Both the position numbers and the translations under genes were made by a program. Below, in pieces: positions 32,356 through 55,392 of a DNA stretch of 64,000 nucleotides; position 1 is the stretch's first letter; each line of letters starts with the position of its first letter. The notes under the pieces were generated by a model that ran no database searches, had not been told where the DNA came from, and saw only the letters and a program-made list of their open reading frames with translations. The DNA comes from Pseudomonas sp. LS.1a (lineage in GTDB: Bacteria; Pseudomonadota; Gammaproteobacteria; Pseudomonadales; Pseudomonadaceae), in the NCBI RefSeq assembly GCF_022533585.1, contig NZ_CP092827.1:2954001-3018000 (forward strand). The letters are read 5' to 3'.

Positions 32356-32447
32356 CCCTGTGGGAGCGGCTTTAGCCGCGAACACCGGCACAGCCGGTGC
32401 CATGCACCGTGTTGGATTCTTCGCGGGTAAACCCGCTCCCACAGGGT
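32356..32447. repeat. REP pair with CACCGG core, extended type
   Basis: GTGGGAGCGGCTTTAGCCGC, the AACACCGGCACAGCCGGTGCCAT core, then GCGGGTAAACCCGCTCCCAC. The copy at 38317-38407 matches it through the core and also in the flank (ATTGAATTGGCAG versus ATTGAATTAGCAG), so the repeated unit is longer than the REPs alone. The same core builds the 118-bp array at 50-53 kb. Confidence 0.9.
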
Positions 32448-49063: not shown

Positions 49064-50038
49064 ATGAAGTTTCTGGTTGTCGGTGGCGCAGGCTACATTG
49101 GCTCGCACATGGTCAAGCACCTGCTCGGTGCAGGCCATGAGGTAGTGGTGGCGGACCTGGTCTCGCCCGGCCCCGGCATCCAGTGGGCGAAACTGGACAT
49201 CGCCGACGAACCCGCCCTGGATGTGCTGTTTGGCGTTTGCCGTTTCGATGCCGTGTTCCACTTTGCCTCGTTCATCCAGGTGGGCGAGTCGGTCAGCGTG
49301 CCCGGCAAGTACTACCAGAACAATGTCGCGGCCACCCTTGCCCTCCTGCAGGCCATGGTGAATGCCGGTATCAGGTACCTGGTGTTTTCTTCCAGTGCTG
49401 CGGTTTACGGCAACCCGCAGTATGTGCCGATCGACGAAGCGCATGCCAAGGGGCCGATCAACCCGTATGGGCTGAGCAAATGGATGGTCGAACAGATTCT
49501 CGAGGACTTCGACCGGGCCTACGGCTTGAAGTCGGTATGCCTGCGTTACTTCAATGCCGCGGGTGCTGACCCGGAAGGCCAGTTGGGCGAGTGCCATGAC
49601 CCGGAAACCCACCTGATCCCGCTGATCCTGCAGGCTGCTTCGGGCCGGCGTGAGGCGGTGACGGTTTTTGGTCGGGATTACGATACGCCGGATGGCACCT
49701 GTATCCGTGACTACGTGCATGTGGCCGATCTGGCGACGGCGCATGCGTTGGCGGTGGAATATCTACTGGCGGGTGGCGAGCGCACTGCGTTCAACCTGGG
49801 CAATGGCCTGGGCTTTTCGGTGCAGCAGGTGATCGATACGGCCCGGGCGGTGACCGGTCGGCAGATCAAAGCCCTTGACGCGCCACGCCGAGCTGGTGAC
49901 CCGCCACGGCTGGTGGCGGATGCGAGCAAGGCGCTGCAGGTGCTGGGCTGGCGGCCGGAGTTTGCCTCGCTGGAGCAAATTGTGCGGCATGCGTGGCAGT
50001 GGGAGTTGCAGTATCCCTGGACTGCGCGCCAGACCTGA
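49064..50038 (+). CDS. galE: UDP-glucose 4-epimerase
   Basis: 324 residues of the extended SDR family: VVGGAGYIGSHMVKHLL (NAD-binding GxxGxxG), VFSSSAAVYGNP, YGLSKWMVEQIL (catalytic YxxxK) and LRYFNAAGADPEG. It interconverts UDP-glucose and UDP-galactose, supplying galactose donors for the EPS. The ATG follows CAGGAGGCATGG, a good ribosome-binding site. Last plus-strand EPS gene; convergent with the kinase gene beyond the repeat array. Confidence 0.94.
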   Translation: MKFLVVGGAGYIGSHMVKHLLGAGHEVVVADLVSPGPGIQWAKLDIADEPALDVLFGVCRFDAVFHFASFIQVGESVSVPGKYYQNNVAATLALLQAMVNAGIRYLVFSSSAAVYGNPQYVPIDEAHAKGPINPYGLSKWMVEQILEDFDRAYGLKSVCLRYFNAAGADPEGQLGECHDPETHLIPLILQAASGRREAVTVFGRDYDTPDGTCIRDYVHVADLATAHALAVEYLLAGGERTAFNLGNGLGFSVQQVIDTARAVTGRQIKALDAPRRAGDPPRLVADASKALQVLGWRPEFASLEQIVRHAWQWELQYPWTARQT

Positions 50039-51292
50039 GGTTCGGAAGGCGCTGCGCCTCCCTGTGGGAGCGGGTTCACTCGCGACCACCGGCGCAGCCG
50101 GTGCCATCCACCGCGTCGCCTGCTTCGCGGGCATGCCCGCTCCCACAGGATCCCCGCCAGCCGAAGGAGTGCGCCATACCTGTGGGAGCGGGTTCACCCG
50201 CGAACACCGGCGCAGCCGGTGCCATCCACCGCGTCGCCTGCTTCGCGGGCATGCCCGCTCCCACAGGATCCCCGCCAGCCGAAAGAGTGCGCCATACCTG
50301 TGGGAGCGGGCGCGCCCGCGAACACCGGCGCAGCCGGTGCCATCCACCGCGTCGCCTGCTTCGCGGGTGAACCCGCTCCCACAGGATCCCCGCCAGCCGA
50401 AGGAATGCGCCATACCTGTGGGAGCGGGCGCGCCCGCGAACACCGGCGCAGCCGGTACCATCCACCGCGTCGCCTGCTTCGCGGGTGAACCCGCTCCCAC
50501 AGAGACCCCGCCAGCCGAAGGAATGCGCCATACCTGTGGGAGCGGGCGCGCCCGCGAACACCGGCGCAGCCGGTGCCATCCACCGCGTCGCCTGCTTTGC
50601 GGGTGAACCCGCTCCCACAGGATCCCCGCCAGCCGAAGGAATGCGCCATACCTGTGGGAGCGGGCGCGCCCGCGAACACCGGCGTAGCCGGTGCCATCCA
50701 CCGCGTCGCCTGCTTCGCGGGCATGCCCGCTCCCACAGGGCCCCCACCAGCTGAAGGAATGCGCCATACCTGTGGGAGCGGGTTCACCCGCGAACACCGG
50801 CGCAGCCGGTGCCATCCACTGCGTCGCCTGCTTCGCGGGCATGCCCGCTCCCACAGGATCCCACCAGCCGAAGGAATGCGCCATACCTGTGGGAGCGGGC
50901 GCGCCCGCGAACACCGGCGCAGCCGGTGCCATCCACCGCGTCGCCTGCTTCGCGGGCATGCCCGCTCCCACAGGATCCCCGCCAGCCGAAGGAGTGCGCC
51001 ATACCTGTGGGAGCGGGTTCACCCGCGAACACCGGCGCAGCCGGTGCCATCCACCGCGTCGCCTGCTTCGCGGGCATGCCCGCTCCCACAGGATCCCCGC
51101 CAGCCGAAGGAGTGCGCCATACCTGTGGGAGCGGGCGCGCCCGCGAACACCGGCGCAGCCGGTGCCATCCACCGCGTCGCCTGCTTCGCGGGCATGCCCG
51201 CTCCCACAGGATCCCACCAGCCGAAGGAATGCGCCATACCTGTGGGAGCGGGTGTGTTCTGGTCAAGTATTTCCGGACACCGGTTACGGTGA

Positions 51293-52174
51293 TCAAGCCG
51301 CCTGCTGCTCCATAGCTATTGGTGACAGGTAGTCGTTGTAGCTGTGGAGCCTGATTCGGTTGTATCGCATGAAGTAGCTGGTCATGTCCTGCTTGGCTTC
51401 TTCAATTTCCTTGTAGCCCTTGGGCGGCACCCATTCTGACTTGAGCGTCCCAAAGAAGCGCTCTGTTGGTGCGTTGTCCCAGCATTGTCCCCTGCGACTC
51501 ATGCTTTGCGTTATCCCATGCTCAAGCAGCTCGGATTGGAAGCGCTGGCTGGTGTATTGGCAGCCTTGATCCGAGTGAAACATCAAGCCTGCATGCTTGC
51601 CCCTAACCCCTACTGCCATCCTAAGCGCCTTGCTAACCAAGTTGGCGTCGTTGATCAGGGAAAATGCCCACCCAACGATCCGACGCGCGAACAAGTCAAT
51701 CACTACTGCCAGGTGATACCAGCGCTTCCCGACCATCAAACTGGTCACGTCACCGCACCAGACCTGGTTAATTGCGGTTGGCTCAAAGTTACGCTCGAGC
51801 AGGTTCTTGGCCACAAACGCTTCAACGCCTTTGGAGCGATTCCGATGCGGACGGCGTTGCTTGCTTTCCAGATTTGCCTCCTCCATGAGTTTTCCGGCCA
51901 GATACCGCCCCACCTTGAGCTGCTGGGCCTTCAGGTACTCAGAGATCATTCTCGCGCCCGCGCTTCCCCTGCTTTCGACGTGCAGCTGAACTACTTTCTC
52001 TCTGAGTTCGTCACGCTTGGTATTCGGCGCTGAACGACGGCGAAGCCAGTCATAAAACGCGCTACGGGATACGTTCAGCGCACTGCAAAGGAGGCTGGTC
52101 GGATACGAGCCTGACTCTCTCAGTTCCTCAATCAGGAAAAACGATCGGGATCCGACATCAAGAGAGCCGTAGCC
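51293..52174 (-). CDS. IS3-family transposase OrfB (DDE), expressed by -1 frameshift
   Basis: The catalytic half of the transposase. In the -1 frame it starts after the slippery site and reads FFLIEELRESGSYPTSLLC, ALNVSRSAFYDWLRRRSAP, then the rve integrase core with NQVWCGDVTSLM (D), VIDLFARRIVGWAFS, FHSDQGCQYTSQRF (D) and GQCWDNAPTERFFGTLKSEW (E), a complete DDE triad. OrfAB is the functional transposase; an internal ATG at 51949 would give a product missing the HTH_21 region. Confidence 0.9.
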   Translation of the reverse strand, partial: GYGSLDVGSRSFFLIEELRESGSYPTSLLCSALNVSRSAFYDWLRRRSAPNTKRDELREKVVQLHVESRGSAGARMISEYLKAQQLKVGRYLAGKLMEEANLESKQRRPHRNRSKGVEAFVAKNLLERNFEPTAINQVWCGDVTSLMVGKRWYHLAVVIDLFARRIVGWAFSLINDANLVSKALRMAVGVRGKHAGLMFHSDQGCQYTSQRFQSELLEHGITQSMSRRGQCWDNAPTERFFGTLKSEWVPPKGYKEIEEAKQDMTSYFMRYNRIRLHSYNDYLSPIAMEQQAA

Positions 52175-52440
52175 TTTTTTAAGATTTCAGCCTCGGTCTC
52201 CAGGCGCTTGATCTTGGCTCGCAGCTGCTGGAGCTCTCGCTGTTCGTCGCTGATCGGTTTGGTACCGGCTACTGGCTGGCCCTTCTGTCGCTCTTTACGT
52301 ACCTGATCAACCCAGCGGCGCAGGGCTGTAGGGCCGACGTCCATTGATGCGCAGACGTCGGGAATCGAGCAGTGGTCATCAAGAACCATGCTGGCAGCAC
52401 GTTGCTTGAACTCGCGGGTGTAGGTCTTTCGTTCTTGCAT
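52132..52440 (-). CDS. IS3-family transposase OrfA (HTH)
   Basis: 102 residues: N-terminal helix-turn-helix (YTREFKQRAASMVLDDHCSIPDVCASMDVGPTALRRWVDQVRKE) that binds the terminal repeats, then a leucine-zipper-like coiled coil (ELQQLRAKIKRLETEAEILKKATALL). It ends at 52132 and overlaps OrfB, which is read in the -1 frame. Confidence 0.9.
   Translation of the reverse strand: MQERKTYTREFKQRAASMVLDDHCSIPDVCASMDVGPTALRRWVDQVRKERQKGQPVAGTKPISDEQRELQQLRAKIKRLETEAEILKKATALLMSDPDRFS
52174..52180 (-). other. Programmed -1 frameshift site (A AAA AAG)
   Basis: On the minus strand TTA AAA AAG codons of OrfA create the heptamer A AAA AAG. Shifting back one base leads into the long OrfB frame (reading GGC TAC GGC). 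Strand and phase of the two frames agree with this: codon positions are 1 mod 3 in OrfA and 2 mod 3 in OrfB. Confidence 0.85.
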
Positions 52441-53012
52441 GGAACCTCCTGATTGGGCGAATCATATCGCCCTTAAGAGGTGTCCGGGATCATTAGGCCA
52501 GTTCAGTGCGCCCGCGAACACCGGCGCAGCCGGTGCCATCCACCGCGTCGCCTGCTTCGCGGGCATGCCCGCTCCCACAGGATCCCCACCAGCCGAAGCA
52601 ATGCGCCATACCTGTGGGAGCGGGTTCACCCGCGAACACCGGCGCAGCCGGTGCCATCCACCGCGTCGCCTGCTTCGCGGGCATGCCCGCTCCCACAGGA
52701 TCCCCGCCAGCCGAAGGAGTGCGCCATACCTGTGGGAGCGGGTTCACCCGCGAAGCAGGCGCAGCCGGTGCATGGCACCGGCTTCGCCGGTGTTCGCGGG
52801 TGAACCCGCTCCCACAGGGACCCCGCCAGCTGAAGGAATGCGCCATACCTGTGGGAGCGGGCGCGCCCGCGAACACCGGCGCAGCCGGTGCCATCCACCG
52901 CGTCGCCTGCTTCGCGGGCATGCCCGCTCCTACAGGATCCCCGCCAGCTGAAGGAATGCGCTGTACCTTTGTGTCTCGAAAGGGCTGCAAAGCAGCCCCG
53001 GGATCTGAAGCT

Positions 53013-53819
53013 TCAGTAATAGGTCCGTGGCTGCTCGTCGGCCTTGTTCAATACCGTCCCGACCAGGTTCACCCTGGCCAGGTGATGCAGGCAATCCTCG
53101 ATTTCCTTCCTGTTGTTCATACCGTTGGCCACCACCAGCAGCACACAGTCGAACTTGGGTATCACGGTGATCGCATCGTCAGAGCTGAGCAGCGGCGGCA
53201 AATCGAAAATGCAGATGCGCGACTCGTAGCGGTTGCGCAGTTCGCTGATCAGGTTGCTCACTTTGGGCGACGACAGCATTTCGGTAGACAACGGCACCGG
53301 TACGCGCGTCGGCAACACCACAAACCGAGGCAAGGTCGGGTTGACCAGGCAGTCCTGCAGCTCGGCCTTGTCCGTCAGGAACTCGTTCAGCGCCTGATCC
53401 ATGGGCAGGCCCAGGGTGCTGCCGACCTTGGGCCGACGCAGGTCGAAGTCCACCAGCAACGCGGTCTTGGTGGTGTGGTGGGCGATGCTCATGGCCAGGT
53501 TGACCGCCAGCACCGTCTTGCCCGCTTCCGGGGTTGGCGAGGTGATGGCCAAAGTTCGCCAGCCATTCTCCTCCATGGTCCTGAGCACTTGCGTGCGCAG
53601 CAGGTCGATCGGCCCGTTCATGTGCGAGTTCTTGTTGTAGGCGACGATGCGGTGACGTTCCAGGTGCTCCGCGCGCAGCGGCACCACCTTGGTGTTCACA
53701 TAATCGAACTGGCCAGGCACTTCCGTCAGCGCCGTACCAGGGGCAGGTGACAAGGCCTGAGGGGTACCCGGAGTAACCGGGTGAAGATTATTGCCAACAG
53801 CCGGCTTGGTCCTGTCCAT
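53013..53819 (-). CDS. CpsD/CapB-type tyrosine-kinase-like ATPase of the EPS system
   Basis: 268 residues from the ATG at 53819, 10 bp after the chain-length gene. BY-kinase motifs: Walker A ITSPTPEAGKTVLAVNLAMS, Walker A' LLVDFDLRRPKVG, Walker B RICIFDLPPLLSSDD. A cytoplasmic partner of the Wzz protein that cycles EPS assembly by phosphorylation. The tail lacks the usual Tyr cluster; only TYY closes the protein, so its autophosphorylation could be reduced or replaced. The last gene before the repeat array. Confidence 0.88.
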   Translation of the reverse strand: MDRTKPAVGNNLHPVTPGTPQALSPAPGTALTEVPGQFDYVNTKVVPLRAEHLERHRIVAYNKNSHMNGPIDLLRTQVLRTMEENGWRTLAITSPTPEAGKTVLAVNLAMSIAHHTTKTALLVDFDLRRPKVGSTLGLPMDQALNEFLTDKAELQDCLVNPTLPRFVVLPTRVPVPLSTEMLSSPKVSNLISELRNRYESRICIFDLPPLLSSDDAITVIPKFDCVLLVVANGMNNRKEIEDCLHHLARVNLVGTVLNKADEQPRTYY

Positions 53820-53829
53820 CACTGCTTCC

Positions 53830-55392
53830 CTATGCAAACCGAGACATGACTTTGAACAACAGCACATCCAGTGGCATGTAGAACACGTGCACCAGCACTA
53901 CCATGATAGCCGCCAGCGCCAGCGCTGCCAGGATCAGCCAGTTGCGCCAACGCCTGCGCCTGGCCACATCGGCCTTGGTATCGATGTATGGCAGCGCCAC
54001 CAGCACCCGCCTGCCCAGCAGGTTTTCCAGGGCTCCGACGCCGCGAATACGCTGGTTGAACATTTCCAGCAACATCACCAGCGCACCGCCACCTGCCGGT
54101 GCCAGCACCAGACCCAGCGCGGCGATTTTCTTGCGGTTGGGTTTGATCGGTTTCTCGGGCATCAGCGGTGGTTCCAGCAGTACAAAGCGCTCGGCCTTGT
54201 TCTCCTGCTCCAGGCTTTCGGTAATCTTCGCGCCCATTTCCTTGGCGCGGATTTCCTCGTACTTCTTGCGCGCGTTGTCGTGGTCACGCATCAAGGTCAC
54301 CAGGCCACGCTCGACCTGCGGCGCCTCGAGGATCTCGGCCTCATAGCCTTCCATCTTGCGGGTCAACTCGCGCTTCTGCTCGGCCAGTGAAGCAATGCGT
54401 TCCTGTGCCGCGCTCATCTTGGCACGCACGCGGGCGACATCGAGGCCGACCGTGGACGCCGCCGCCGTGCGATTGCCACTGGCTTCGAGCGCCTGGATCC
54501 TGCGCTTGACCGCCACCACATCGGGGTGGGCTTCCTTGTAGCGGCTCAGCAACTGGGCATACTCGGCCTTCAGGCTGGGCAGGTCCTGGGGCTGTTCGGC
54601 ACTGGCCGCCCTGGGGCCTTCGCCGGTCTTGGTGGCCAGCCCGGCATTGGCCGCGGACAGTTCCAGTTCCAGGTAACGCAGTTCTTCCTGGGCGGCCTTG
54701 TAATCACGGTCGACCTCGCGGAACTCCAGCTCCGACCGCGACAGCATGTTCATGCGCAGGGTCTGGTGCTCGGGCAAGGCATTGGCGTGCGCCTGCTTGA
54801 AATCCGCCAGCTGGTTTTCCAGGCTGGCCAGCTCGGCCCCCAGCTTGTTCGCCTCCTGGGTGAGGAACTCGGTGGTTTCATTGGCCCGCTCGGTACGCTG
54901 CTTGAGGTTCTCGTTGAGGAACAGCGTCACCAGTTCGTCGGCGACTTCCTTGGCCACTTCCGGCTGCTTGTGCTCGAAGGACACATTGAACGCCACGGTC
55001 GCTTCACCGCGCCCGCGCACATAGGTGGTGAGGGTCTCGACCACGACGGCACTGCGCATGTGGTCGATCTTGTCGCTTTCGCTGAAGCGCTTGTCGGGGA
55101 ACAGGTTGTACTTGCCGATGATGCGCAGCAGGTTCTCGCGGGTCATCACCCGCTGGCGAATGACCTCGATACGCTCATCGGCAAAGCTGGTGTTGTTGGT
55201 CGACACCAGCTCGGGCGAAATCTGCTGCGACTCCACCAGGATGGTGCCGGTCGACTGGTAGATCGGCGGCACCATCACTGCGACAGCAACGGTCGCGGCC
55301 AGGATGACTACGATGCTCACCCCCAATATCAGGCCTCGGTCCTTGATTATGGCGATGTAATCTCTGAGGGAGAGCTCGTAGTCAGACTTCAT
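53830..55392 (-). CDS. Polysaccharide chain-length/co-polymerase protein (Wzz, GNVR-type)
   Basis: 520 residues: TM helix at about 20-42 (LILGVSIVVILAATVAVAVMV), a long periplasmic region with coiled coils (about 170-390, EQKRELTRKMEGYEAEI) and a second TM near the C-terminus (WLILAALALAAIMVVLVHVFY) after a NRKKIAALGLVLAPAGGGALVML segment. It is the PCP-2-type chain-length determinant, with the kinase as a separate gene. Stop and start are in a tight block with the beta-barrel gene. Confidence 0.9.
   Translation of the reverse strand: MKSDYELSLRDYIAIIKDRGLILGVSIVVILAATVAVAVMVPPIYQSTGTILVESQQISPELVSTNNTSFADERIEVIRQRVMTRENLLRIIGKYNLFPDKRFSESDKIDHMRSAVVVETLTTYVRGRGEATVAFNVSFEHKQPEVAKEVADELVTLFLNENLKQRTERANETTEFLTQEANKLGAELASLENQLADFKQAHANALPEHQTLRMNMLSRSELEFREVDRDYKAAQEELRYLELELSAANAGLATKTGEGPRAASAEQPQDLPSLKAEYAQLLSRYKEAHPDVVAVKRRIQALEASGNRTAAASTVGLDVARVRAKMSAAQERIASLAEQKRELTRKMEGYEAEILEAPQVERGLVTLMRDHDNARKKYEEIRAKEMGAKITESLEQENKAERFVLLEPPLMPEKPIKPNRKKIAALGLVLAPAGGGALVMLLEMFNQRIRGVGALENLLGRRVLVALPYIDTKADVARRRRWRNWLILAALALAAIMVVLVHVFYMPLDVLLFKVMSRFA

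Follow-up and report, generated by a model that had tools for sequence, protein, structure and literature searches.

A tandem array of 14 REPINs, split by an IS3-family element, that has probably grown in copy number between galE and an EPS kinase gene of Pseudomonas

The analysis of the window, by which we mean the whole 64,000-nucleotide stretch of DNA under study, revealed a tandem array of 14 REPIN-containing units between two convergent genes, which we consider with good confidence to be a BIME-like series of tandem REPINs, selfish or neutral in nature, that has grown in copy number at this locus. One of the genes converging on the array is galE (49064..50038, plus strand; TIGR01179, 2.7e-123), and from the opposite side converges an EPS tyrosine autokinase-like gene (53013..53867, minus strand; TIGR03018, 3.1e-42, under the model cut-off). 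The array is a large and apparently recent example of an already known repeat type. A host function is neither needed nor shown, and the array most likely does nothing for the host.

The 14 units, each 117–119 bp long, contain 28 REPs and span positions 50062–52966, with starts at 50062, 50180, 50298, 50416, 50534, 50652 and 50770 for units 1–7 and at 50887, 51005, 51123, 51240, 52612, 52730 and 52849 for units 8–14; a spacing of 117–119 bp was observed in all 13 intervals measured between unit starts. The left block (50062..51254) comprises units 1–10 and the start of the unit 11 forward REP, and the right block (52506..52966) comprises the rest of unit 11 and units 12–14. TRF reported 10.2 copies in block one (94% matches, score 2069) and 3.9 copies in block two (86%, score 714). 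Every unit is laid out as a forward REP, a core, a reverse REP and a linker, that is, as a REPIN plus a linker, with REPs of the type GTGGGAGCGGG-loop-CCCGCGAA. When a variant-tolerant pattern was applied, with the flanks of the insertion sequence (IS) joined for the count, the REP order was a strict alternation, (><)x14 (n = 28); by the same pattern, 13 cores measure 39 bp and one 40 bp, and 11 linkers measure 39 bp and two 38 bp. The 118-bp period exists because of these two fixed spacers (20 + 39 + 20 + 39); linkers of 40 bp result in a period of 119, as seen in other arrays of the same genome and in the genomes G110 and G245. Near-identical REPINs are repeated here together with their flanking sequence, as in ordered tandem REPIN clusters.

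The forward loops are TTCA or CGCG and the reverse loops CATG or TGAA, forming a mosaic by unit, to which unit 11 adds a single TGCG. In each of units 1 and 5, one of the two REPs carries a variant base, the forward REP of unit 11 is interrupted by the IS, and the core of unit 13 (52730..52848) is inverted between its two REPs relative to the other units. With the exception of the unit 13 core, cores are 0.98–0.99 alike within the window blocks, and linkers are 0.93 alike. The G+C content of the array is 72% vs 63% in the window. At the right edge (52955..52985), the last linker runs into TTTGTGTCTCGAAAGGG, which resembles the decayed remains of a REP belonging to another class, one that is intact at the same locus of genome G057 (L187). 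A CRISPR-like array was considered and rejected, given that the linker itself is repeated and varying spacers are lacking. Genome-wide, the search for REPs of the array type, allowing at most 2 mismatches, produced 790 + 774 matches and its reversed-pattern control 0, so that a chance origin is not an option.

A previous sequence-only reading had described 14 consecutive units with a 117–119 bp period, each with two facing REPs and a linker, about 28 REPs in 1.65 kb, and a mosaic of loops by unit. The count, the period, the facing arrangement and the mosaic all hold, whereas the units are not consecutive, since a 1251-bp IS splits unit 11, and the figure of 1.65 kb is valid only without this element. 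The same reading had placed single copies of the composite elsewhere in the window; REPINs with related cores are indeed present near 32361, 38322 and 63284, but they do not amount to the whole composite, the linker being absent by count. In our own accounting (10 of 17 places listed), the linker places of this genome (15 + 2) correspond to 14 in the array, one at 2318677 and two in a second array.

The interrupting element, which had been omitted from the earlier reading, is an IS3-family insertion sequence of 1251 bp (51255..52505, ORFs on the minus strand) with imperfect terminal inverted repeats (TGTTCTGG.. / TGAACTGG..), located in the loop of the unit 11 forward REP and flanked by a GTG target-site duplication (left copy 51252..51254, right copy 52506..52508). 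It carries both the IS3-family OrfA (52132..52440, minus strand; HTH_Tnp_1, 8.7e-14) and OrfB (51293..51949 from the listed ATG, minus strand; Pfam rve integrase core; NF033516 IS3 transposase, 2.7e-72), as an ISPsy8-like element does. The protein matches provided no specific IS name: among the 120 of 533 matches listed, only the generic 'IS3 family transposase' was found, together with one source name containing ISLad1. A second, identical copy is present in the same genome (C1:1605645-1606895), and both full-length copies interrupt a REP loop. The same three bases are hit in both cases when read on the REP strand, and the two copies point in opposite directions.

Relatives of this IS were matched in 14 of 398 genomes, and 25 copies were examined (2 own, 2 on plasmids and 21 from 13 other genomes), in a census that considered no more than two candidates from each genome and drew its 398 genomes from a larger group. 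Excluding L094, whose flanks are cut by contig ends, and the own-genome remnant L003, 24 copies were assessable, those of one genome or lineage being non-independent; 19 of them lie at one fixed REP point, with GT[AG]GGAGCNN immediately preceding the three target bases on one or both sides, and 13 of the 19 show both REP halves plus the 3-bp duplication. The five located outside a REP are L084 and L085 (both on plasmids), L090, L095 and L104. The L084 copy, on the large plasmid LT969519.1 of P. aeruginosa RW109, is 97.6% identical and also has a 3-bp duplication. The remnant L003 (G000:C1:803875-803978, where G000 is the genome under study) comes from a related IS and matches 116 bases, and its left end apparently abuts a REP of another class at that same point. 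Two copies in genome G072 (L086 and L099) are flanked by two 5' REP halves with no target duplication, which suggests a rearrangement between REP-inserted IS copies. An IS3 element favouring one REP point could help to study how transposases find hairpins.

To place the array among the REPs of its own genome, we considered an 864-kb sample consisting of the window minus the array plus 40 stretches, which is non-random, as many stretches were picked at known REPs, arrays and RAYTs. This sample contained 299 REPs, with 97 tail-to-tail neighbours (< >), 91 of which were 38–42 bp apart, and 49 head-to-head neighbours (> <), of which 36 were 39 bp apart and the rest 26 or 41 bp. Tail-to-tail neighbours were thus commoner than head-to-head ones in the sample, and the length of the linker was almost constant and its sequence very variable. 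The idea of the linker as a conserved hairpin received no support when the 34 different linkers of 40 bp from an initial 464-kb sample were examined, as pairing within linkers scored 233 vs 240.0 ± 9.9 across linkers (p = 0.77).

The genome has two RAYT (Y1_Tnp) genes. One of them, L004 (G000:C1:5488763-5492080), is adjoined by six REPs of the same class, in three pairs, within 1.5 kb, as is expected where REPINs occur; these pairs are tail-to-tail and not head-to-head REPINs. By pattern search, no REP was detected close to the second RAYT gene (L005). The existence of two such genes, one of them accompanied by REP pairs, is what could be cited for an array built by successive RAYT-driven REPIN insertions, a history to which we nevertheless give only a very small chance, considering that separate events would not carry the same linker. 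Equal-length linkers within arrays had a mean similarity of 0.86–1.00 in 19 of 19 blocks with at least 5 REPs (20 stretches given), compared with a mean of 0.61 between arrays (132 comparisons in both orientations), a value already raised by conserved linker ends. The fixed REP pattern used here breaks the window array and the L175 array into two blocks each, and the between-array mean includes the comparison of the two window blocks with each other. This likeness of linkers within arrays argues for duplication of the unit together with its linker rather than for repeated independent insertion.

We therefore favour growth in copy number at the locus, and the earlier suggestion of a satellite-like expansion of a REPIN-containing unit is supported, the gap being short in relatives (see below). 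A locus of the form > core < linker > offers two direct REPs about 118 bp apart, and unequal exchange or replication slippage, acting at first on such direct REPs and subsequently on entire units, would have led to a number of 14. Conversion would then have mixed the loops among units, the core of unit 13 may have been flipped by exchange between its own inverted REPs, and the IS3-family element was probably inserted after the array had formed, through a transposase that presumably favours REPs. Exchange among the units, also proposed previously, finds support in the presence of all four combinations at 13 of 55 informative site pairs (unit 13 excluded) and in the identity of units 9 and 12, from both of which unit 2 is one base off. 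Adjacent units differed at 6.0 positions vs 7.06 in random order (p = 0.08, unit 13 excluded); this is a trend only, so a stepwise history of adjacent duplication is not demonstrated.

In assemblies, short tandem repeats frequently come out too short or too long, and the array might on that account be taken for an assembly artefact, which we judge extremely unlikely. The genome was assembled as one contig of 5.75 Mb, and expansion errors would hardly yield an ordered succession of differing units, one of them with its core inverted and another holding an IS flanked by a clean 3-bp duplication; moreover, G390 and G110 are examples of other genomes in a single contig that have similar arrays.

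The flanking genes allowed the locus to be followed in relatives. In an alignment of 28 named loci gathered by the kinase protein, the nearest relatives of the EPS kinase were those of Pseudomonas sp. SID14000 (97.5%) and P. pudica (96.8%), a kinship that places the strain in the P. putida group. The galE gene lies downstream in 24 of these 28 loci and is absent within reach in 4, and in the 24 where both genes could be placed the gap between them is 37–402 bp. REPs of the array type are present in 6 of the 24 gaps and absent from 18; 6 gaps contain arms of other REP classes and 12 lack any REP arm. At the SID14000 locus (L036), a single REPIN is found, edged by GCGCCTCCC on the left and GCGCTGTACCTTTGTGTCTCGAAAGG on the right, both in agreement with the ends of the array; the contig is a short-read one, where a single REPIN could be a collapsed repeat. 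The sequence of genome G103 (L186) equals that of SID14000 at the locus and may belong to the same strain. In L042, the gap is occupied by three units with a different linker, and in G057 (L187, 3 contigs) by one REPIN with the linker and an intact other-class REP; there, a linker remnant on the left, read by eye, seems to provide the last codons and the stop of galE. In five additional genomes where both genes could be located, the gap measures 37–95 bp and is free of REPs by pattern, that of L110 containing another REP-like palindrome. REP pairs of other classes were observed in the gap in L041, L043 and L048, which makes the interval between these two genes a site where REPs recur.

Because the gap is short and mostly free of array-type REPs in relatives, and because SID14000 has a single REPIN, the array looks like a local, lineage-specific expansion and not like a conserved insulator. 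The sequence-only reading had assigned to it the insulation of two convergent EPS blocks, and this claim is not supported: the convergent pair is kept in 24 of the 28 named relatives, and 12 of these 24 lack a REP arm in the gap; the terminator-like matches of the region all fall within the IS. More generally, we regard it as very improbable that a host function keeps the array in place, be it insulation of the convergent EPS transcription units or a role as a sink for gyrase or other proteins. Such a function would agree with the position of the array exactly between the convergent genes, with the array-type REPs in 6 of 24 gaps and a REP arm of some class in six more, with the binding of gyrase, IHF and Pol I by E. 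coli REPs reported as background in PMC1525189, and with the folding of the unit as RNA, which is far better than that of shuffles on both strands. However, the convergent pair occurs with no REP arm in half of the 24 relatives, the five further genomes keep their short gaps without pattern REPs, and the array itself lacks terminator-like, promoter-like, exact IHF or Rfam matches.

Specifically, the only 3 terminator-like matches in 49900–53200 (shuffles 2.0 ± 1.6) are all inside the IS, and nowhere in the array is a G+C-rich hairpin followed by a T run. Promoter-like sites were likewise not found within the array, nor was an exact IHF consensus, nor any Rfam family at gathering score. Folded as RNA, unit 2 reached −64.6 kcal/mol (z −5.4), the two strands of one unit gave z −5.4 and −3.3 vs shuffles, and a linker-centred stretch gave z −7.8. 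This strong folding arises because of the palindromes and is thus no evidence of function.

The linker proved to be shared beyond this locus. Using its 23-base core with at most 3 mismatches as a query on the 398 genomes, we obtained matches in five, namely the genome under study (17), G057 (4), G072 (34), G390 (15) and G103 (1); as the reversed linker pattern gave one match in each of six other genomes, the single match of G103 rests on its context and not on its count. Linkers adjoin a REP at 11 of the 12 loci inspected, out of 30 linker loci (at L198 the pattern showed nothing), and several of these loci are non-orthologous in the genome under study, G057, G072 and G390, comprising the interval between galE and the kinase gene, the second array of the own genome and the ribE locus (G390, G072). 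The second array is located about 221 kb away, between other genes, and the linker of two of its units is identical to that of unit 6.

At ribE, the unit number differs as well, with 13 units in G390, six in G072 and none in G057, which has only CCTGTGGG between the matching flanks; whole (REPIN-linker)n blocks are either present or absent between flanks ending in CTGTGGG. The G057 site may represent the old, empty state or a scar left by collapse. At the same locus, G217, G145 and G045 have 34–65 bp without REPs, the genome under study has one REP, and G265 and G157 have one tail-to-tail pair and a different upstream gene.

The occurrence of the same linker beside REPs in four genomes, at loci that are not orthologous, means that the composite has spread, or that conversion has spread its linker, and as the linker is common to other loci, duplication in place is not the whole story of the array. 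A tentative extension of our reading, which we hold possible though rather doubtful, is that the 118-bp composite of REPIN and linker would behave as a dispersing, self-seeding satellite, pieces of arrays being copied to new sites where they re-expand; gene conversion through REPs is an equally open route for the spread of the linker. This spread of the linker along with the REPIN is the less ordinary part of the present observations and worth pursuing. The locus between galE and the kinase gene, where closely related species differ greatly in the number of REPINs, is a place where repeat growth and loss could be measured.

Three direct REPs 108–124 bp apart were detected in 33 of 398 Pseudomonas genomes, the present one included, a count that covers any REP class fitting the pattern and hence several classes and periods, and for which the control gave 0. 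The largest other arrays inspected have 13 units (G390, L175), 11 (G245, L174) and 9 (G110, L167), and G110 and G072 exceeded our genome in total pattern matches for this search. The window array is large, yet one among many. As regards published cases, Bertels and Rainey 2011 (PMC3116915) describe 16 tandem REPIN clusters in P. fluorescens SBW25, the largest with four REPINs plus one REP, and arrays of GI–GIII REPs with at most 12 REPs, the two largest of which are nearly identical at distant places; according to PMC8450116, REPs are single, paired or in clusters of up to 5. Within the open-licence literature, judged by titles and abstract starts among the matches listed, no REPIN array of this size was found for the P. 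putida group.

When compared with known systems, the array resembles the SBW25 clusters of PMC3116915 in its tandem, near-identical REPINs with flanks, in the fixed spacing and in the occurrence of several arrays per genome, and differs from them in size (14 REPINs with 28 REPs, vs at most four REPINs plus one REP per cluster and up to 12 REPs per array), in its 118-bp period and in the presence of an IS. It also resembles the E. coli BIMEs, characterized in PMC3686654 as 'tandemly repeated REPIN-like doublets', in the alternating palindromes and the two kinds of spacers, and is unlike them in REP sequence, in host and in its lack of an exact IHF consensus site. The inserted element shares with ISPsy8, an IS3-family member of P. 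syringae DC3000, the OrfA/OrfB organization, the 3-bp duplication and the use of one fixed REP point; according to PMC1525189, all five ISPsy8 copies have this duplication at the axis of the predicted REP hairpin, and four of the five are in REP clusters. Whereas ISPsy8 is in a REP in 5/5 copies, the present IS and its relatives are so in 19/24, in several REP stem classes. Finally, ISPpu9 and ISPpu10 of P. putida KT2440, from the same species group, are similar in their REP-specific insertion, and differ in belonging to the IS110 family and producing a 2-bp duplication, their insertion point being given as between REP bases 9 and 10 (PMC1525189 and PMC8450116).
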